From Bacteroidales bacterium (lineage in GTDB: Bacteria; Bacteroidota; Bacteroidia; Bacteroidales; WCHB1-69): 42,017 nt of DNA. Shown one piece after another: positions 7,890-16,447 of this stretch. The position numbers and the translations under genes are program-made. The stretch is from NCBI GenBank assembly GCA_017525245.1, contig JAFXTE010000028.1, forward strand, positions 1 through 42,017, given 5' to 3'. Under the pieces are notes generated by a model, which made no database searches, was not told the origin of the DNA, and worked only from the letters and a program-made list of their open reading frames with translations. Position 1 is the first letter of the stretch; the number at the start of each line of letters is the position of its first letter.

Positions 7890-7991
7890 AATGCTTTTAT
7901 TTTGGTGAAAAATTAAAGGTTATCGGTTATTGGTTTTTGGTTATAGAAGCTGGAAGTTCATAGAGAGTTTGATAATTAGAGTTTGAATTGG

Positions 7992-7999: not shown

Positions 8000-8277
8000 G
8001 AATTTTTTTTGTTTGGTTGTCACTTTATTTTTTTGTCCGGCATTATAAATAATGTCAATTCTTTTGTCCTTTATGAATGGGCGTGGTTTAATGACTGATT
8101 CGTTTTTTTGCATAAAATACGACAAAAACAAGAGATTCCCGCACTATCTTTAGGGGATTTATCATACCCAATACGCCTCCATATCACGGCCAAGAGACAA
8201 TTAAAACTGAACATAATTATTTGATAATCAAAACACAGATGTTTTTAGCTAAAAAAAACGCCATGATAGCCATTTTC

Positions 8278-8310
8278 TTTGCGGTACTTTAAAAATAAAG
8301 TGTATTTTTG
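8278..8310 (+). promoter_or_regulatory. Promoter of the rex-adhE-hydrogenase operon
   Basis: TTTG (8278-8281) and TATTTTTG (8303-8310) with 21 bp between them fit the Bacteroidota pattern, 32 bp before the rex ATG. It is the only good promoter core before the six-gene operon. A convincing Rex operator (TTGTGA-type inverted repeat) was not found over it. Confidence 0.6.
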
Positions 8311-8342
8311 CCGCGGATTTCAATAGATAAAAAAGTATCGAT

Positions 8343-9026
8343 ATGTCCAAACAGAATACACCCTCTTTGGTGGTCATGAAATCGACCTTGAGCCGGCTGC
8401 CGCTGTACTACAGCTACATCAGCAGACTGCAGGCTGATGGGGTGGAATCTGTCTCTTCTGCATTGCTTGCTGGGCATCTGAACCTCAACCCCGTATTGGT
8501 TCGCAAAGATCTTGCGCAGGTGAGCAGTGTGGCTGGTCATCCCCGAACCGGTTTTGAAGTGAAGCAACTGCTTGAGGACATGAGTGAATATTTGGGTTAC
8601 AACAAAATGGACGAAGCCATTTTGGTTGGGGTCGGCAGCATGGGCCGCATCCTCCTCACCAATACCAAATTCGCCAAATTCGGGTTGAACATTGTGGTGG
8701 GCTTCGACAAAGACCCCTATTTATGCGGACTCCAGCTTGATGGCAAGCACATCCTTCCCATGGAAAAGATGCCAAGCCTCGTACAACGCATGGGCATCCG
8801 TATAGGCATTATCACTGTACCTGACGATCAGGCACAGAGTGTGTGCGACCAAATGGTGAAGGCTGGCATCAAGGCCATCTGGAATTTCGCCTTTGTGCCG
8901 CTGAAAGTTCCCGAAGACGTGCTTGTGAAAAACGAGAATCTGCCCTCTTCATTAGCCGTTCTCGCACACAAGTTGGCCAAGAGATCACCTCTGCCCAAAG
9001 AGTTAAATCCGATAATAGAAAATTAA
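8343..9026 (+). CDS. rex: Redox-sensing transcriptional repressor Rex
   Basis: This 227-residue protein has both Rex domains. The N-terminal winged helix (residues about 5-80) shows STLSRLPLYYSYISRL and the VRKDLAQVS recognition region. The C-terminal Rossmann domain starts at residue about 92 with VGVGSMG, the NADH-binding loop, and ends with the swapped helix that closes the dimer. Rex binds DNA when NAD+ dominates and lets go when NADH builds up, so it derepresses fermentation genes under reducing conditions. It stands first in an operon, 21 bp before adhE, a typical Rex target. Autoregulation is likely, but no operator could be assigned. Confidence 0.95.
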   Translation: MSKQNTPSLVVMKSTLSRLPLYYSYISRLQADGVESVSSALLAGHLNLNPVLVRKDLAQVSSVAGHPRTGFEVKQLLEDMSEYLGYNKMDEAILVGVGSMGRILLTNTKFAKFGLNIVVGFDKDPYLCGLQLDGKHILPMEKMPSLVQRMGIRIGIITVPDDQAQSVCDQMVKAGIKAIWNFAFVPLKVPEDVLVKNENLPSSLAVLAHKLAKRSPLPKELNPIIEN

Positions 9027-9047
9027 AAACCTATATTTTTTTACAAT

Positions 9048-11666
9048 ATGAAGAAAGAAAGTGTAAAATCAGAGGAAAAAACCGATAAAAATTTATCGGT
9101 TGAAAGTGAGATCGATGTGTTAGTCCGGAATGCGGAAGAAGCGTTGAAAACATACGTTGACTTCAATCAGGAGCAGGTGGACAAGATTGTCTATGCGATG
9201 GCATTAGCCGGTTTGGAGCACCATCGTGAGCTCGCGCGCCTGGCTGTTGATGAGACACACCGTGGGGTTTACGAGGACAAGATCATCAAGAATATTTTCG
9301 CTACAGAGTATATTTGGAATTCCATCAAGAACGAGAAAACGGTTGGCGTTGTGGAGGACAACGAGATGGAGGGTTATGTTGAGGTTGCTGAACCTGTCGG
9401 TATTGTGGCTGGCGTGACGCCGGTGACGAACCCGACATCCACCACTATGTTCAAGTCGTTGATTTGCGCGAAAGCCCGCAATCCGATCATCTTCGGATTC
9501 CATCCGTCCGCACAGCAATCGTCGGTGGCGGCTGCCAAGATTCTGCGTGACGCGGCCGTGGCGGCAGGAGCTCCTGCGGCATGTATCCAATGGATCGAAC
9601 ATCCTTCTGTGGAGGCTACCATGGCTTTGATGAACCACCCGAAAGTGTCGTTGATTTTGGCTACTGGCGGTGCCGGCATGGTACGTTCGGCCTACAGTTG
9701 CGGCAAACCCGCCCTCGGCGTCGGACCCGGCAACGCTCCCTGCTACATCGAGACTTCCGCCAATGTGAAACGCGCCTGCACCGACCTCATGATGTCAAAG
9801 ACCTTCGACAACGGCATGATTTGCGCTTCCGAGCAAGCGGTCATCGTGGACAAGGTGATTTCCAACCTGTTCGAGTCGTTCATGAAAGAGAACGGCTGCT
9901 ATTTCCTGAACGAGGAGGAAATCAAGAAGGTGTCCGATTTCGTCATCAACTCAGAGAAAGGTGCGGTCAATCCCGACGTGGTGGGCAAATCGCCCTACTG
10001 GATCGCGCAACAATCGGGTGTGACGGTTCCCGAGAGAACCAAAATCCTCATCGCACGACTGAAAGATGTGGGTCCGGAATACCCGCTTTCCCGCGAGAAA
10101 CTGTCGCCGGTGCTGGCCTACTACGTAGTGAACAACCATGTGGAAGGATTCGAGATGTGCCGCAAGATGCTCGATATGGGCGGCCTTGGCCACACGGCCA
10201 TCATCCACAGCACCAACAGCGACCTGATCGAGAAGTTCGGCAAAGCGATGAAGGTGGGTCGTATCATCGTCAACTCCCCGTCATCGCAGGGTGCTATCGG
10301 AGACATCTACAACACCAACACCCCGTCGTTGACCCTCGGCTGCGGCTCATACGGCCATAACAGCACGACAGCCAACGTCTCCACCGTAAACCTTATCAAC
10401 AAAAAGAAAATCGCAAAAAGAAGAGTCAATATGCAATGGTTCAAGATTCCGCCGAAAGTTTATTTCGAGTACGGTTCAGTGCAATATCTGGAGCACATGG
10501 AAGGCTTCAGCAAGGCGTTCATCGTGAGCGACCCGATGATGGTGCAGCTCGGCTATGTCGATAAAGTCACCTATTATCTCAACAAGCGCAGCGAGCCTTG
10601 TCATTACCGGATTTTCTCCGATGTGGAGCCGGATCCGGATGTGGAGACCATCATGCGCGGCGTGGCTGAGATGCGTTCGTTCCAGCCAGACGTGATCATC
10701 GCGTTGGGCGGCGGTAGCGCCATGGACGCGGCCAAGGGAATGTGGCTCTTCTACGAGCATCCCGAGACCTCTTTCGACGGCTTGCGCCAGAAGTTCATGG
10801 ACATCCGCAAGCGTGTGGTGAAATTCCCGCACTTAGGCAACCAGTGCAAGATGGTCGCCATCCCGACCACATCCGGCACCGGCAGCGAGGTGACGGCCTT
10901 CACAGTCATCACCGACAAGAAGCTCGGTATCAAGTATCCGTTAGCCGACTACGCCGTGACGCCAAACGTGGCCATCATCGACCCGCAGTTCGTGGTTTCG
11001 TTGCCGAAGCGTGCCACTGCGGACACCGGCATGGACGTGCTGACCCACGCCATCGAGGCCTACATCTCCAACATGGCCAACGACTACACCGACGGTCTGG
11101 CTCTGCAGGCAATGGATCTCGTTTTCAGCTATTTGAAACGTGCTTATGAAAACGGTCAGTTCGATCTGAAGGCGCGTGAAAAGATGCACAACGCCTCCTG
11201 TATCGCCGGCATGGCCTTCACCAACGCCTTCCTCGGTCTCAACCACAGCATGGCCCACAAGTTAGGCGGCGACTACCATATCCCGCATGGCCGCGCCAAC
11301 GCCATCCTGTTGCCCTACGTGGTCAAGTATAACTCACTGAAACCGAATAAATTCGTTCCATTCCCGAAATATGATCATTTCATCGCGGACGAAAAATTGG
11401 CCAAAGCCGCCCGTTTCCTCGGGTTTGGCGGCAAGGACAACGAAGAGAGTATAGATAACCTCATCAAGGCTATCCGCCAGTTAATGAAAGACATGCACAT
11501 GCCGATGAGTATCAAGGAAGAGGGTGTGGATGAGAAACTGTTCATGGAGAACGTCGCTGCGCTGTCCGAGAAGGCACACGATGACCAGTGTACCGGTGCC
11601 AACCCGAAATATCCCCTCGTCAGTGAAATTATCGAAATATACAAACAAGCCTATTATGGTGAATAA
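9048..11666 (+). CDS. adhE: Bifunctional acetaldehyde-CoA/alcohol dehydrogenase
   Basis: This 872-residue AdhE has the full two-domain form. Residues about 20-440 are the CoA-acylating aldehyde dehydrogenase, with catalytic Cys259 in GMICASEQ. After a linker near residues 445-470 comes the iron-dependent alcohol dehydrogenase, with GGGSAMDAAK for NAD binding, GTGSEVTAF, and the iron-ligand region HAIEAY...NHSMAHKLGG...HGRAN. It turns acetyl-CoA into ethanol using two NADH and normally assembles into spirosomes. It follows rex by 21 bp, so redox control by Rex is expected. The 145 bp after it hold two hairpins before the next gene, which may set lower expression of the hydrogenase part. Confidence 0.97.
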   Translation: MKKESVKSEEKTDKNLSVESEIDVLVRNAEEALKTYVDFNQEQVDKIVYAMALAGLEHHRELARLAVDETHRGVYEDKIIKNIFATEYIWNSIKNEKTVGVVEDNEMEGYVEVAEPVGIVAGVTPVTNPTSTTMFKSLICAKARNPIIFGFHPSAQQSSVAAAKILRDAAVAAGAPAACIQWIEHPSVEATMALMNHPKVSLILATGGAGMVRSAYSCGKPALGVGPGNAPCYIETSANVKRACTDLMMSKTFDNGMICASEQAVIVDKVISNLFESFMKENGCYFLNEEEIKKVSDFVINSEKGAVNPDVVGKSPYWIAQQSGVTVPERTKILIARLKDVGPEYPLSREKLSPVLAYYVVNNHVEGFEMCRKMLDMGGLGHTAIIHSTNSDLIEKFGKAMKVGRIIVNSPSSQGAIGDIYNTNTPSLTLGCGSYGHNSTTANVSTVNLINKKKIAKRRVNMQWFKIPPKVYFEYGSVQYLEHMEGFSKAFIVSDPMMVQLGYVDKVTYYLNKRSEPCHYRIFSDVEPDPDVETIMRGVAEMRSFQPDVIIALGGGSAMDAAKGMWLFYEHPETSFDGLRQKFMDIRKRVVKFPHLGNQCKMVAIPTTSGTGSEVTAFTVITDKKLGIKYPLADYAVTPNVAIIDPQFVVSLPKRATADTGMDVLTHAIEAYISNMANDYTDGLALQAMDLVFSYLKRAYENGQFDLKAREKMHNASCIAGMAFTNAFLGLNHSMAHKLGGDYHIPHGRANAILLPYVVKYNSLKPNKFVPFPKYDHFIADEKLAKAARFLGFGGKDNEESIDNLIKAIRQLMKDMHMPMSIKEEGVDEKLFMENVAALSEKAHDDQCTGANPKYPLVSEIIEIYKQAYYGE

Positions 11667-11676
11667 TAAAATGGGG

Positions 11677-11753
11677 TTTCACTCGTTTCAAAAGGTTAGT
11701 TTTGAGTGAATCGTGTTTTGAAGCAGGTGGCCTCGTGTAAACGGGGCGCCTGC
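11677..11753 (+). promoter_or_regulatory. Hairpins in the gap between adhE and the ferredoxin gene
   Basis: Two inverted repeats lie in this 145-bp gap: TTCACTC (about 11678-11684) with GAGTGAA (11704-11710), and GCAGGTG (11723-11729) with CGCCTGC (11747-11753, one G-U pair). Neither is followed by a T-run, so they look like mRNA processing or partial read-through structures and not a full terminator. Confidence 0.35.
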
Positions 11754-11811
11754 GTACAAAGCCGACAAACAGGACAACAATCAATTTTAGAAAAATATTA
11801 AAACAAAAACA

Positions 11812-12114
11812 ATGATGAATATTAAAGTTTGTGTTGGCAGCTCCTGCCACTTGAAAGGTTCTTACGATGTCATCCAATCCTTAAAAGACATCCTGAAAAA
11901 ATACGATGTGGAAGATCTGGTGGAATTGCAGGCCAGTTTCTGCCTGGGACATTGCGCCAAAGGCGTGAATGTCAGAACAGACGGCCTTTCCGACAGCATG
12001 AAGCAGAAAGCCACCACGCTCGAAGAAGACGGCAGCATCATTCTCCACAACGTCACCAAAGAGAATGTGGAAGAGATATTTGTAAAAGAAGTCTATCCTT
12101 TAATCGAATTATAA
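11812..12114 (+). CDS. Thioredoxin-like [2Fe-2S] ferredoxin (NuoE/HydC-like)
   Basis: This 100-residue protein is a stand-alone thioredoxin-fold [2Fe-2S] domain. The four cluster ligands are visible: Cys7 and Cys12 in KVCVGSSCH, and Cys44 and Cys48 in FCLGHCAKG. It lacks the helical bundle of full NuoE. Related domains feed electrons in the HydABC electron-bifurcating hydrogenase and NADH dehydrogenases; here no flavin subunit is nearby, so its partner is unclear. It ends 9 bp before the HydS-like gene, and this pairing is also known next to sensory hydrogenases in Clostridia. The start is ATG 11812 or the adjacent ATG 11815. Confidence 0.85.
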   Translation: MMNIKVCVGSSCHLKGSYDVIQSLKDILKKYDVEDLVELQASFCLGHCAKGVNVRTDGLSDSMKQKATTLEEDGSIILHNVTKENVEEIFVKEVYPLIEL

Positions 12115-12123
12115 GCCGGGGAG

Positions 12124-13833
12124 ATGTCATTATATTTAGAGTTTCGCAATGCGAAATGTAAAGATTGCTACAAATGCCTGCGCGAATGTCCGGTGAAAGC
12201 CATTGACATCAAGGGACATCAGGCGGAGATTATCGAAGACAGATGCATCTTGTGCGGCCACTGCACGCTTGTGTGCCCGCAGAACGCGAAGGTGGTGCAC
12301 AGTGAGATCAACGAGGTGCGCGCCCTGCTGGCGGGTCCCGACAAAGTGATTGCCAGTGTCGCCCCCTCGTTCATTTCCAGTTTTGGACTTTCCGATTTCG
12401 GAGTGATGAAATTGGCGCTTGCCAAACTGGGCTTTTTTGATGCGGAAGAGACGGCTGTCGGCGCACAGGCGGTAACCCAAGAGTACGCCAACCTGCTGAA
12501 ATCCGGACAGTTCAAAAACTTCATAACGTCCGCTTGTCCGGCCGTATGTCGTATGATTCAAGAGTATTATCCGATGGCGCTCAAGTATTTGGCGCCTGTC
12601 GATTCCCCGATGGTGGCCCACGCCAAAATCCTCAAGAAACAGCATCCCGAGGCCAAGATCGTCTTCGTAGGCCCCTGCATCGCCAAAAAGCGCGAAGCGG
12701 AGGAATGCCACCTCATTGACAATGTCCTGACTTTCGAGGATGTGGTGGAGCTTTTCAAGGAAAAAGGGGTGCAGATTGACGAAATCACCAACGTCATGTT
12801 GCAGAAACGGAACGGAATGCCGAACCTGGCGAAGGAATACCCCATTCCTCAGGGCATCATCCACTCTTTTCCGGAACTTCCGGAGGGCTATGACTATATC
12901 GCCATCGACGGTCCGATGAAGTGTGTCAAAGCGTTGCAAAACATTGAACACATGGACCATGTGGTGTTGGAGATGAACCTTTGCGAGGATGCCTGCGTGA
13001 ACGGACCCTGTTCATTGGAGAAGAATGGCGGTTCCGTCAAGGCCATGTCGGACATCCGCAAGTATGTCTCTGCCGAGAAACGCCAACTCACGGCTACGCA
13101 GACGCCGGTGCAAGTGGAAGTCCCGCTCGCCACGGCCCATCCGAGAATCCGCAGCCACAGCATGCCTGCTCCCGAGCGCGAAATCGAAGCCATCCTGCAC
13201 AAGACCGGCAAGTTCAAACCGGAGGACGAACTCGATTGCGGTTCCTGCGGCTACGCCACTTGCCGCGAGAAAGCATGGGCGGTCTATAATGGCTATGCCG
13301 ACATCGACATTTGCTTGCCCTACATGCGTCAGCGTGCCGAGTCTTTCTCCGTGGAGGTGATCCAAAACAGCCCGGAAGGCATCGTGGTGCTCGACCCGGA
13401 CATGAACATTTTGGAAATCAACCGCCGCGGACGCGAACTGTTAGGCATTGAGGATCCCAACGCCAAAGGCCATCCTGCTATCGACTACTTCAACCCTATC
13501 GACTTCTGCAACGCATACGCCCAGAAGAAGAACATCGAGCTGAAGAAGGAACTTGTCACGAGCACAGGCAAGTATGTGGACTTGTCCATCAACTATTTAG
13601 CCAACCAGAATCTCATCTTCGGCATTATGAAGGATGTCACAGACACCGTTGACTATGAGAAGCGGATCATGAAGGTGAAGATGGAGACGCTGACCACGAC
13701 CGACGATGTGATTAAGAAGCAAATGCGTGTGGCTCAGGAGATTGCGTCGCTGTTGGGCGAAACTACAGCCGAGACCAAGGTGGCCCTGTTGAAGCTGAAG
13801 AAAACGTTAACCGAAGAAAAAGTCTCTGAGTGA
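12124..13833 (+). CDS. hydS: HydS-type sensory [FeFe]-hydrogenase with PAS domain
   Basis: This 569-residue protein combines, in order, a two-[4Fe-4S] ferredoxin domain (residues 1-65, CKDCYKCLRECP and CILCGHCTLVCP), an H-cluster domain (75-310), a four-cysteine Fe-S domain (Cys372, Cys375, Cys380, Cys397, PF04060 type) and a PAS domain (about 405-520) with a coiled C-terminal tail. The H-cluster ligand cysteines are Cys138, Cys185, Cys287 and Cys291. The proton-transfer cysteine of catalytic enzymes is replaced by Ala137 (TSACP instead of TSCCP), and loop 3 reads LCEDACVNGPC. These traits mark putative H2-sensing group C enzymes, which have little turnover. Its TGA overlaps the ATG of the phosphatase gene, arguing for a shared signalling task. 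Confidence 0.9.
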   Translation: MSLYLEFRNAKCKDCYKCLRECPVKAIDIKGHQAEIIEDRCILCGHCTLVCPQNAKVVHSEINEVRALLAGPDKVIASVAPSFISSFGLSDFGVMKLALAKLGFFDAEETAVGAQAVTQEYANLLKSGQFKNFITSACPAVCRMIQEYYPMALKYLAPVDSPMVAHAKILKKQHPEAKIVFVGPCIAKKREAEECHLIDNVLTFEDVVELFKEKGVQIDEITNVMLQKRNGMPNLAKEYPIPQGIIHSFPELPEGYDYIAIDGPMKCVKALQNIEHMDHVVLEMNLCEDACVNGPCSLEKNGGSVKAMSDIRKYVSAEKRQLTATQTPVQVEVPLATAHPRIRSHSMPAPEREIEAILHKTGKFKPEDELDCGSCGYATCREKAWAVYNGYADIDICLPYMRQRAESFSVEVIQNSPEGIVVLDPDMNILEINRRGRELLGIEDPNAKGHPAIDYFNPIDFCNAYAQKKNIELKKELVTSTGKYVDLSINYLANQNLIFGIMKDVTDTVDYEKRIMKVKMETLTTTDDVIKKQMRVAQEIASLLGETTAETKVALLKLKKTLTEEKVSE

Positions 13834-14993
13834 TGGAACTTTGCTTAGAAACAGGATGCACTTCGCTGAACCATTACGGCGAAGAACTGTGCGGCGACAA
13901 CGTGGCCTGCACGGTAAACGGCGACTATACTACGTTGGTGCTGGCCGACGGTCTGGGGAGCGGCGTGAAGGCGAACATTCTTTCCACGCTCACCTCCAAG
14001 ATTTTGTGTACCATGGCCGCCAACGAAATCGACATTTACGAATGCGTGGAGACCATCATCCAAACGTTGCCCGTGTGTGCGGAGCGTGGGGTGGCGTATT
14101 CCACGTTCTCCATTATCCACGTCAACAAGGAGGGCAAGGGGGAACTGTTCGAATTTGACAATCCGGAAGCTATCTATTACCATAACGGAAAATGCCAGAA
14201 CTTTGAGCGTGAAGAGCTGGATGTCTGCGGCAAACGGGTTTATCGTTCCGAGCTCAATCTTGAGGAGAACGACATCATCCTTGTTATGTCCGACGGTACC
14301 ATCCACGCTGGCATCGGTATGATCCTCAACTTCGGCTGGGAGCGGCCCCAGATCATGGAGCATCTCGACAACAACATCAAGCCCGAGATGTCCGCACGCG
14401 CGGTGGCCTGCATGCTCGCCGCCGCCTGCAACGACCTCTATGCCGACAAGCCGGGCGATGACACCACCGTGGCTGCCGTCAGGATTCGTCAGCGGCTGGA
14501 TGTCAACATCATGGTGGGACCGCCTGTGGATAAGGAGAAAGACGACTACTACATCAAGAACTTTTTGGAGGGACATTCCAAGAAGATTGTCTGCGGCGGC
14601 ACCAGCTCCACGATTGTGGCAAGGTACCTGAAAACGGAGCTCAAAACCAGCTTCGACTTCCCCGACAAGGAGGTTCCGCCAATCGGATACATCAAGGGAA
14701 TCGACCTTACCACCGAGGGCGTGCTCACCCTGCGCAAACTGCTGCAACTCTCGGAAAAATACGTTTCCATCGATGACCTTACCCCGAAGACCTTCACCAA
14801 GCAGGACGGTGCCTCGCTTTTGGCGGACTTCCTCTTTGAGAAGGCCACACATATCACCTTCTTCGTCGGACAAAGCGTCAACGTGGCGCACCAGGGTTTG
14901 CCCATCGACACCACGATGAAACTGAAACTGGTGGAGAAGATTACCGAAAATTTGCGCAAGATGGGTAAAATCGTTGAACTGAATTATTATTAA
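13833..14993 (+). CDS. SpoIIE/PP2C family serine phosphatase
   Basis: This 386-residue protein is a PP2C-type phosphatase of the SpoIIE group. Metal-binding aspartates appear in GDN (residue about 20), LADGLGSG (residue about 36), SDGTIHAG and GDDTTVAAV. The last 160 residues form an extra domain usual for the relatives that sit beside sensory hydrogenases. I start at ATG 13833, which overlaps the hydS stop as TGATG; an in-frame GTG three bases earlier is less likely. SpoIIE-type enzymes usually dephosphorylate anti-anti-sigma (STAS) proteins. No such partner, sigma factor or HPK-type kinase is in this window, so the output target is unknown. Confidence 0.88.
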   Translation: MELCLETGCTSLNHYGEELCGDNVACTVNGDYTTLVLADGLGSGVKANILSTLTSKILCTMAANEIDIYECVETIIQTLPVCAERGVAYSTFSIIHVNKEGKGELFEFDNPEAIYYHNGKCQNFEREELDVCGKRVYRSELNLEENDIILVMSDGTIHAGIGMILNFGWERPQIMEHLDNNIKPEMSARAVACMLAAACNDLYADKPGDDTTVAAVRIRQRLDVNIMVGPPVDKEKDDYYIKNFLEGHSKKIVCGGTSSTIVARYLKTELKTSFDFPDKEVPPIGYIKGIDLTTEGVLTLRKLLQLSEKYVSIDDLTPKTFTKQDGASLLADFLFEKATHITFFVGQSVNVAHQGLPIDTTMKLKLVEKITENLRKMGKIVELNYY

Positions 14994-15016
14994 TCCTCAA
15001 CAAAACAACAATCAAT

Positions 15017-16447
15017 ATGAATTCAAATCGGATATTTGACACTGATGTACAGCTGGTTAAGTATAAAGTCCTGAAGGAGGTTATCCGCCGTGCCTACGAG
15101 GGTGGCTTGGAGGACGCTTACATGGAAGTCCCCAAGCTTCTCAGTCCCGGCCCGAAAGCGGAGACCCGCTGCTGCATCTACAAGGAACGCGCCATTTTGC
15201 AGGACCGGATCAAGATGGCGATGGGCGGCGACAAAGAGAACCCCAACGTGATCGAGGTCATCGACAGCGCCTGCGACGAATGCCCCATCGACGGAATCTA
15301 TGTGACCCCCGCCTGTCGCGGATGCATGGTGCACAGCTGCAAGGAGGTTTGCCCGAAGGATGCCATCACCATCGTGAACCACAAGGCAACGGTAGATAAG
15401 GACAAATGTATCGAATGTGGCAAATGCACGCAGGCATGTCCCTATTCGGCCATCATCCTCCAGCACCGTCCCTGCATGGTGAGTTGCCCGGTGAAGGCGA
15501 TTTCGATAGACGAGAACCGGAAGGCCGCCATCGACAACAACAAATGCATCTCCTGCGGGGCCTGCGTCTATAAATGCCCGTTCGGTGCCATTTCCGACAA
15601 GTCGCTGGTGTTGGATATCATCGACATCTTAAAAAAATCGGAGAACAATACGAAATACAAGGTTTATGCGGTCATCGCGCCCGCCATCGTGAGCCAGTGT
15701 CGTTTCGGACGGGTCACGCAGGTGGTCACGGCCATCCGCAAATTAGGATTCCATCATGTGGTGGAGGCCGCCCTCGGCGCGGACATCACGCTTTACCGCG
15801 AGGCCAAGGAGTGGGAGGAGAAGAAACTGCTCACCACGTCGTGTTGTCCGTCGTTCGTTTCCTTCGTGGAGAAGAATTTCCCGGAACTGACGCAGTACAT
15901 CTCCAGTTCGGTGTCGCCCATGGTGGAAACGGCACGTCTGATCAAACGTTCCGACCCCACGGCGAAGATCGTCTTCATCGGACCGTGTACCTCCAAGAAG
16001 TTGGAGTACCGGCTGGAAAAGACCGGTGGAGCCATCGACAGTGTGATGTCGTTCGAGGAGTTGCAGGCCTTTTTGGACGCACGCGGCATCGACACCACCC
16101 AGATGGAGGATTCAGAGCTGAACAACGCCTCCTACTACGGCCGTATCTTCGCCAAGTCGGGCGGTATCGCCCACGGCGTCGCCGATGTGGCGGAGGCGAT
16201 GGGCGTGCAAGGCGTGAAACCGATTGCCATGAACGGCATCGCGGAATGCAAGGCCGCGCTGACCCGGCTGAAGTTCAACAAGGCCACCGAAAACTTCTTC
16301 GAAGGGATGGCCTGCAACGGCGGATGCCTCAACGGCCCCGTCTGCATCACCCACAGCCCGCGCAACATCGTGGATGTCGATAAATACGGCAACGAGGCGC
16401 GCGAGAAGACCATCTTCAACTCTGTGAAACTGCTCGAATCGTTCTGA
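15017..16447 (+). CDS. Catalytic [FeFe]-hydrogenase, ferredoxin type (group B-like)
   Basis: This 476-residue protein has an N-terminal Fe-S part with CIECGKCTQACP, PCMVSCP and CISCGACVYKCP motifs plus further cysteines near residues 85-120, then the H-cluster domain. The three loops read TSCCPSF (Cys276 and Cys277), IGPCTSKKLE (Cys324) and GMACNGGCLNGP (Cys433 and Cys437). All four ligands and the proton-transfer cysteine Cys276 are kept, so turnover is expected, unlike the HydS gene upstream. The loop-2 IGPC in place of MPC and the loop-3 form suggest group B, a class reported as common in gut Bacteroidota. It likely takes electrons from reduced ferredoxin to make H2. The HydEFG maturases are not in the window. 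Confidence 0.9.
   Translation: MNSNRIFDTDVQLVKYKVLKEVIRRAYEGGLEDAYMEVPKLLSPGPKAETRCCIYKERAILQDRIKMAMGGDKENPNVIEVIDSACDECPIDGIYVTPACRGCMVHSCKEVCPKDAITIVNHKATVDKDKCIECGKCTQACPYSAIILQHRPCMVSCPVKAISIDENRKAAIDNNKCISCGACVYKCPFGAISDKSLVLDIIDILKKSENNTKYKVYAVIAPAIVSQCRFGRVTQVVTAIRKLGFHHVVEAALGADITLYREAKEWEEKKLLTTSCCPSFVSFVEKNFPELTQYISSSVSPMVETARLIKRSDPTAKIVFIGPCTSKKLEYRLEKTGGAIDSVMSFEELQAFLDARGIDTTQMEDSELNNASYYGRIFAKSGGIAHGVADVAEAMGVQGVKPIAMNGIAECKAALTRLKFNKATENFFEGMACNGGCLNGPVCITHSPRNIVDVDKYGNEAREKTIFNSVKLLESF

Follow-up and report, generated by a model that had tools for sequence, protein, structure and literature searches.

A putative electron-sink control cassette of rex, adhE and hfs-type hydrogenase genes, present as a block at several chromosomal sites within a Bacteroidales genus

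Positions 1 to 42,017 of contig JAFXTE010000028.1 (assembly GCA_017525245.1; Bacteroidales, WCHB1-69), the whole stretch analysed here and called the window, contain six genes on one strand at 8343-16447: rex, adhE, a thioredoxin-like (trx) gene, hydS, a SpoIIE/PP2C phosphatase gene and a group B [FeFe]-hydrogenase gene. On balance, we think that they form an electron-sink control cassette that is complete in itself, varies the rex-adhE-hfsABCD layout of Clostridia and is controlled by Rex and by HydS with its phosphatase. The whole cassette appears to have changed place as a block within the genus. The original prediction, made from this DNA alone, had listed six such genes at this position, and all six open reading frames (ORFs) are there with the expected protein families. 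Compared loci and genomes are given as L and G numbers. The features, all on the + strand, are as follows.

8343-9026, +: rex, NADH/NAD+-sensing repressor, wing GHPRTGF (best model NF003994, 256.7 bits, cut-off 130).
9048-11666, +: adhE, bifunctional acetaldehyde-CoA/alcohol dehydrogenase of a divergent subfamily (NF010378, 1394 bits, cut-off 951).
11812-12114, +: trx-like [2Fe-2S] protein in the position of hfsA (PF01257, a weak match at 27.1, cut-off 24.8).
12124-13833, +: hydS, HfsB-like, with an N-terminal 4Fe-4S domain, an H-cluster domain, an iron-sulfur (FeS) domain and PAS (PF02906, PF04060, PAS).
13830-14993, +: SpoIIE/PP2C serine phosphatase, HfsC-like, with a GTG start (PF07228, 49.9, cut-off 25).
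15017-16447, +: group B monomeric [FeFe]-hydrogenase, HfsD/HydA2-like (TIGR04105, 543.4 bits, cut-off 450).
8288-16447, +: cassette unit common to relatives in the genus, with different flanks (blastn blocks against 11 loci, L015-L025).
8303-8310, +: promoter-like box TATTTTTG, of the form TAnnTTTG, 40-41 nt upstream of rex.
8323-8342, +: palindromic site 1, a putative Rex operator abutting the rex start codon (palindrome comparison across loci).
9081-9100, +: palindromic site 2, a putative Rex operator within the first adhE codons (synonymous resampling; the sole perfect CGATAANNNNTTATCG in the genome).
11723-11753, +: hairpin in the intercistronic stretch that separates the alcohol gene from the hydrogenase module (folding, cross-locus conservation).

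By ORFs and profile matches, the last four genes follow the hfsABCD-type order of small protein, PAS-hydrogenase, SpoIIE phosphatase and hydrogenase, and the phosphatase ORF overlaps the end of hydS by 4 nt (13830 vs 13833). The same genome encodes an [FeFe]-hydrogenase of the trimeric NADH type (L031) and a HydF maturase (481.6 bits, cut-off 325.55). A fourth [FeFe]-hydrogenase-like protein (L032 8068-9444, G000:C110) has an FeS domain and no PAS match, and its gene adjoins one for an ArsP_2-family exporter.

The phosphatase is present in 12 of 40 genomes of the genus, this one included. The original prediction proposed a search for the same gene order in Bacteroidales genomes, and all 11 other phosphatase-bearing genomes, once fetched, contained the same genes in the same order, with exceptions at contig ends: in G008 the contig stops within the phosphatase gene, leaving the hydrogenase gene out of view, and in G044 rex and half of adhE are on a separate contig. 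The hydrogenase match is split into two pieces in different frames in L018 and L022, and an extra iron-dependent alcohol dehydrogenase (Fe-ADH) gene lies between adhE and trx in three loci (L020-L022). The 12 carriers are related and so do not represent 12 independent events, and some of the genomes are incomplete (51-100%). An extra Fe-ADH gene after adhE was also seen in L033, L036 and L175, truncated in the last by the end of the contig. L175 (G002:C38), cut by its contig end, is a second rex-adhE copy in G002 and is nearest to the G017 type (91% DNA identity).

In blastn comparisons with L015-L025, similarity to the window starts at 8276-8291 in nine loci and stops at 16431-16447 in ten. 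It starts only at 9078 in L024, because rex there is too diverged, and it is bounded by a contig end at the start in L022 and at the stop in L025. Across these 11 loci the cassette DNA is 80-97% identical to that of the window, and no flank match longer than 200 bp to the window was found by blastn. Flank-to-flank comparison gave one site common to L015-L018 and another common to L019-L023, with the window and L024 each separate; L025 is near the L019-L023 site, but some kilobases off. In this genus the cassette lies at four or more different places in the chromosome, of which two are unoccupied in some relatives. The window site, between aquaporin and subtilase genes, is closed in G043 (79 bp between the matched flanks) and G013 (270 bp), which have their cassettes elsewhere, and three genomes without a cassette, G011, G012 and G016, show a closed L015-L018 site. 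Inspection of the junctions by eye showed no target-site duplication or terminal repeat, and no recombinase was noticed there. A chimeric contig was ruled out, since both window flanks match one G043 locus at ~93-94%. The cassette DNA is 97.0% identical to that of G043 and 95.0% to that of G013, against 89.0 and 87.3% for rpoB, which was compared in 8 of the 12 genomes including this one (G013 over 1.5 kb only); of the other four, G046 yielded a short piece and three yielded nothing. Flank identities to G043 and G013 are 94 and 87-89% on the aquaporin side and 93 and 93% on the right, and another G043 stretch reaches 97%. Flank identities therefore vary as widely as cassette against rpoB, and we do not conclude that there was recent transfer between species of the genus. 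The window also has, at ~7913-7953, a short element between genes, of which dozens of near-copies, 30-60 bp long, occur across the genus genomes.

The 12 of 40 genomes in which Rex was found are precisely those with the phosphatase, and for this reason Rex looks like a component of the cassette rather than a housekeeping regulator in this genus. Full-length AdhE has the same distribution (split over two contigs in G044). The other 28 genomes have only separate alcohol dehydrogenase-like or aldehyde dehydrogenase-like matches at 38% identity or below, and none in G004 and G015.

The window Rex combines an N-terminal DNA-binding domain with an NAD/CoA-binding-type domain, matches the Rex equivalog model and, like the Treponema cassette Rex, has NF003994 as its best model. 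Its wing is GHPRTGF, a departure from the canonical pairing of an FGxxG.. wing with a TTGTTAA or TTGTGAA operator; three solved Rex proteins read FG-[FL]G--G-GY at the wing position. The cassette type, G[KHYR]P[KRN]xG[FY] (GxPxxG[FY]), was read in 27 of 28 Rex rows, the one exception, L026, being a Rex-like protein at 26% identity encoded outside cassettes of this kind. The rex start codon is directly preceded by a palindrome, TCGATAA-N4-TTATCGA in form, that was found in 19 of 26 loci, five of the 19 being Clostridia loci. When random windows of the same locus were drawn as controls, none of up to 400 draws equalled it in 18 loci, and 12 of up to 400 did so in L018. Of the 19 loci, 17 are fitted better by the TCGATAA form than by the TTGTTAA and TTGTGAA consensus; L017 is a tie, and L079, with a TTGTTAA-type site at two mismatches before rex, is fitted worse. 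Before the window rex, the best TTGTTAA and TTGTGAA matches have 5 mismatches in 14 and the TCGATAA type has 2. The box TAnnTTTG, which we take to be the Bacteroidetes -7 box consensus, lies 40-41 nt before rex in 12 of 12 loci examined (L015 and L024 were outside that set). A second palindrome, ~30 nt into adhE, recurs in L036, L037 and those genus loci that include this region. When codons were resampled synonymously, 3-34 of 5000 trials recreated this second site in each of 12 loci. Upstream of rex, L048, L051, L063 and L079 have two overlapping copies of the palindrome, offset by 14 nt and each with at most 3 mismatches, and L050, without rex nearby, has an overlapping pair, one of them perfect, upstream of adhE. 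The 16-mer CGATAANNNNTTATCG occurs once perfectly in the genome and at six places with at most one mismatch, vs 22 for the reversed pattern. From the wing and these sites we infer that the cassette Rex binds both palindromes.

It is unlikely, though a real alternative, that the palindromes serve another regulator or form RNA hairpins. The dyad of site 2 is preserved by paired changes in L015 and L037, as expected of an RNA stem, and L037 carries the site yet no rex was found beside it. The clostridial Rex site as given in the available text is TTGTTAA-N4-TTAACAA, with the consensus TTGTTAANNNNTTAACAA (PMC8457756; site type also in PMC5886521), and differs in its bases. However, it shares the 7-4-7 layout with the cassette palindrome, and the divergent wing is found in the same cassettes. 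The dyad mismatch of site 1 is retained in most loci, which is unfavourable for an RNA stem, and the copies in L034 and L035, weaker at 3 and 2 mismatches of 14, lie outside coding DNA, between rex and Fe-ADH. Binding by the cassette Rex is the reading that we carry forward.

Between adhE and trx lies a gap of 145 nt that includes a conserved hairpin, which makes a single transcript for all six genes uncertain. The shape of the hairpin is conserved while its sequence turns over, with z-scores of -3.2 to -6.0 in the eight loci folded. Across seven sequences from the genus, six of them distinct, 94.9% of cells are paired, and at two pairs both partners change. The covariation score was reached by 35 of 500 shuffles; support for the hairpin is therefore moderate and its covariation weak. 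We considered a terminator and a repeat, and rejected both: no U-run follows the window hairpin and no terminator-like site is listed in the window gap, and the GGCGCCTGC arm does not recur in like context outside cassettes among the loci compared. An Rfam scan gave one sub-threshold match, outside the cassette. The hairpin would suit two neighbouring units, rex-adhE under NADH control and trx-hydS-phosphatase-hydrogenase under its own, kept together through joint inheritance only, and many Bacteroidota loci do have the core with neither rex nor an alcohol gene nearby. We regard this as doubtful. The 11 genus loci keep one block with no intervening gene except the extra Fe-ADH in three, the gap lacks the signs of termination just described, and the same slot is taken by alcohol genes of distant subfamilies or by Fe-ADH alone. 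We therefore continue to treat the six genes as one cassette.

HydS has the features of group C sensory hydrogenases. The H-cluster cysteines are retained in the motifs TSACP, GPCIAKK and CEDAC, the position of C299 in CpI is Ala and that of M353 is Gly, and FeS and PAS domains occupy the C-terminal part. Both positions are altered in sensory enzymes according to the parts consulted of PMC10055695. A motif search for the C299 position over 94 HydS rows gave 40 with Ala, 9 with Cys, one with Ser and 44 unreadable; the 67 group B rows all have Cys there. At the M353 position, 88 of the 94 HydS rows were read as Gly. In the phosphatase, the core Asp residues, presumably metal ligands, are invariant across 36 aligned sequences. 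Its C-terminal region of ~165 aa has no Pfam match in the window protein and no match in the PDB. Beyond the SpoIIE/PP2C models, no Pfam family matched this region in more than 3 of the 36 members (best E 0.0042, in one member). Residues ~222-387 (window 14493-14990) include invariant GPP, CGG, PP and EG motifs.

Alternatively, HydS could be a slow metabolic hydrogenase and no sensor, with the phosphatase acting on something unrelated to fermentation. The sensory role is still termed putative in the accessible part of PMC8924675, and no kinase partner was seen in the Bacteroidales form. We consider this improbable given the overlap of hydS with the phosphatase gene, the PAS and FeS domains, an Ala at the C299 position as in TmHydS (PMC10055695, as far as consulted), the invariant phosphatase core and, in Thermoanaerobacterium saccharolyticum, the phenotypes of hfsB deletion. 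In the consulted text of PMC5707799, deletion of hfsA or hfsB in this organism raises the adhE transcript two- and threefold and raises ethanol, deletion of hfsC or hfsD gives no such rise, and deletion of all four genes gives no substantial rise. These phenotypes suggest that HydS would be a brake on an action that needs both the phosphatase and the hydrogenase. Both adhE and ethanol also go up when rex is deleted, and hfsABCD is preceded by a predicted Rex site (PMC5886521, in part). The idea of the original prediction that an NADH sensor and an H2-sensor-like protein are linked to two sink enzymes is thus in line with the hfsB genetics.

On the reading that the six genes are a control cassette with HydS as sensor, we infer Rex binding, H2 sensing, phosphatase action, co-transcription and a direction of control as follows. 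At a low NADH/NAD+ ratio the cassette-bound Rex would occupy two operators, at the start of its own gene and in the alcohol gene, and so repress the unit, and a rise in NADH would lift Rex and allow expression. AdhE would then spend NADH on ethanol, and the group B hydrogenase would spend reduced ferredoxin on H2. HydS, as a low-turnover [FeFe]-hydrogenase, would read H2 and, by way of the FeS cluster and PAS domain in its C-terminal part, signal to the phosphatase, which would set the phosphorylation of a target that tunes adhE or AdhE against the hydrogenase. H2 would lift the HydS brake on the phosphatase, so that ethanol could take over when H2 cannot leave; high H2 would favour ethanol.

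For the wider distribution we used a scan of named genomes, taking the best 80 of 573 confirmed loci (57 Bacillota, 22 Bacteroidota, 1 Spirochaetota). Genes were counted when near the phosphatase and on the same strand; many contigs are short and the counts are lower bounds. A trx gene was found in 52/57 Bacillota, 22/22 Bacteroidota and 1/1 Spirochaetota loci, and a hydrogenase piece more than 44% identical to that of the window in 48, 17 and 1, counting short pieces such as those in L090 and L046. A rex gene was found in 8/57, 7/22 and 1/1, and a full AdhE in 11/57, 3/22 and 1/1. An APH-like kinase gene, which in the clostridial cassette stands between adhE and trx, was found in 21/57 Bacillota loci and 1/1 Spirochaetota. 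Of the 55 loci whose upstream DNA reaches 7 kb or more, 9 have both the kinase and a full AdhE, 1 has the kinase alone, 4 have AdhE alone and 41 have neither.

Several of these results, and others, weigh against the cassette as we have drawn it. Linkage is loose among the 22 Bacteroidota loci, with rex in 7 and a full AdhE in 3. The gene for the APH-like kinase, which would counteract the phosphatase, is near the phosphatase gene in 0 of the 22 and is absent from the window, and elsewhere in the 12 cassette genomes only weak APH-type matches were seen, in 6. The phosphorelay may therefore be rewired or dead: without a kinase gene in the Bacteroidales cassettes, either another kinase serves or this arm is altered. 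The gap and hairpin after adhE could split the unit. Gly at the M353 position is also present in 67 of 67 group B rows, and so is no marker of a sensor. The palindrome before rex is missing in 7 of 26 loci (L039, L060, L071, L057, L089, L096 and L066, the last with little upstream DNA), the copies in L034 and L035 are weaker, and the consensus was derived from the tested loci themselves, those of the genus being near kin. Site 1 is two bases off the 16-mer that was searched, so further weak sites in the genome are possible. Finally, high-ethanol hfs strains of T. saccharolyticum have higher, not lower, rex expression (PMC5707799, as far as consulted).

The original prediction asked for PP2C and HydA trees and suggested transfer, and both trees agree with it. 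In quick trees the Bacteroidota phosphatases form one group inside Bacillota (97 rows, SH-aLRT 88), and so do the hydrogenases (67 rows, SH-aLRT 99). Transfer of the cassette core from Clostridia is supported by these two phylogenies. From 97 sequences searched, 28 rex, 27 adhE, 97 phosphatase and 67 hydrogenase rows were kept, with coverage of 0.8-0.85 of the query and identities of at least 40% for hydB and at least 24% for hydS. The notion of a rarity in one Bacteroidales did not hold, given the 22 Bacteroidota loci and a survey of 393 Bacteroidales genomes. Phosphatase relatives are present in 137 of the 393; five, this genome included, are at 72% identity or above, and the remaining 132 are at 31-38% among the matches listed. 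Five of these distant phosphatases, when placed in the tree, fell outside the clostridial-plus-cassette group. They belong to a second lineage common in Bacteroidales. In L026-L030 the genes of this lineage have HydS-like genes and, in part, other [FeFe]-hydrogenase genes next to them, and in L026 a distant Rex-like gene is close by as well.

The AdhE proteins do not share one history. In a tree that is only midpoint-rooted, the AdhE of ten Bacillota cassettes and of the Treponema cassette are on one side, and the Bacteroidales AdhEs are on another branch (support 100) together with L086 (Ruminococcaceae) and L084. The window AdhE is on this separate deep branch and is no ortholog of the AdhE of most clostridial cassettes. 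The two subfamilies are ~48% identical to each other, and against structure 8uhw the Treponema cassette AdhE scores 1612 bits and that of the window 897. L086 has an AdhE of the second subfamily (71%) but a phosphatase only 45% identical to that of the window, and in L084 AdhE is kilobases distant from the core. Because distant AdhE subfamilies stand beside the same core, AdhE seems to have joined it more than once or to have been replaced. In L034 and L035 a lone Fe-ADH occupies the alcohol slot. After the phosphatase, a lactate dehydrogenase gene was found in L089 and L109 (above the L-lactate dehydrogenase cut-off) and L111 (by Pfam), and NuoE/NuoF-type genes with a trimeric-type hydrogenase in L105; NuoF-type genes are also in L051 and L077. 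LysR-type regulator genes accompany lactate dehydrogenase in L089 and L111, and a calcineurin-like phosphoesterase gene (180 aa, annotated in L044) is in or near the cassette in L044, L046 and L068. Somewhat tentatively, and short of an even chance in our judgement, we propose that trx, HydS and the phosphatase could be an exchangeable H2-sensing controller for varied sinks, often with its own Rex subfamily and operator, and that in rumen Bacteroidales the controller could move as a whole from one chromosomal site to another, a portable switch of fermentation. Plugged into it would be AdhE from either of two distant subfamilies, Fe-ADH on its own, L-lactate dehydrogenase, or a hydrogenase of group B or of the NADH-linked trimeric type.

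How electrons are divided between H2 and ethanol under changing H2 pressure is an old question, and the hfsB mutants point to a sensor circuit. That distant alcohol and lactate genes are found time and again beside one sensor core gives evolutionary support to electron-sink control, and specific parts can now be named: two palindromes, a divergent Rex and the C-terminal region of the phosphatase. The naturally kinase-free form shows the sensor-phosphatase pair apart from the kinase. Since several carriers belong to genome sets of rumen or ruminant origin, the circuit may bear on the H2 supply for methanogens; a rumen origin is read from the label RUG, which we take to mean rumen uncultured genome. 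In the part consulted of a rumen study, group C3 sensory hydrogenases go up with a starch diet, their genes, with others, being assigned mainly to Firmicutes and Spirochaetota (PMC9562222).

Our literature search returned no description of the cassette in Bacteroidales and no paper presenting rex-adhE-hfs as a cassette; coverage of subscription papers was thin, so the former is no proof of absence. The statement in the original prediction that similar sets occur in fermentative Clostridia is borne out, as far as the consulted texts go. The closest described relative of the last four genes is hfsABCD of T. saccharolyticum, with a small protein, the PAS-hydrogenase HfsB, the phosphatase HfsC and the ferredoxin-linked hydrogenase HfsD (PMC5707799, PMC11837493, PMC5886521), a regulatory tie to adhE and a predicted Rex site before the operon (PMC5707799, PMC5886521). 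There, however, adhE is elsewhere in the genome (Tsac_0416 vs Tsac_1550) and the predicted Rex sites are of the TTGTTAA type. This system was compared by description; HfsA is described as aligning poorly to known proteins, and it is equated with trx by position only. In Clostridium thermocellum the locus tags alone imply the same layout, with Clo1313_1799 (Rex), 1798 (adhE), 1797 and 1796-1793 (hfs) (PMC8457756, PMC11365378, PMC5707799, each in part), and the rex-adhE-hfs layout itself is therefore not new. Rex_1799 is a divergent second Rex, 36 and 34% identical to two characterized Rex proteins. The extra gene 1797, placed by its tag only, is in the slot of the APH-like kinase of Clostridia cassettes, and the Bacteroidales form has no such gene. 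In Ruminococcus albus, hydA2-hydS (Zheng et al. 2014), again compared by description from the parts consulted, pairs a hydrogenase that senses H2 with an adjacent ferredoxin hydrogenase, and a step by a Ser/Thr kinase has been proposed. TmHydS, a group C enzyme compared in the same way (PMC10055695), shares PAS, Ala at C299 and Gly at M353 with the window HydS; at the M497 position the window protein has Asn by motif reading, vs Ser in TmHydS. The group B [FeFe]-hydrogenase of gut bacteria (PMC12578642) belongs to the same enzyme group as the window hydrogenase, and the parts consulted of that paper do not describe the cassette. Taken together, the linkage of sensors to sinks and the transfer of a clostridial core stood and the supposed rarity did not, and the absent kinase, the different AdhE, the cassette-bound Rex and the relocation of the unit had been overlooked. 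What is new relative to the known systems is the block with its boundaries and multiple sites, its private Rex and AdhE, the wing with its palindrome, the divergent AdhE and the kinase-free form in Bacteroidota.

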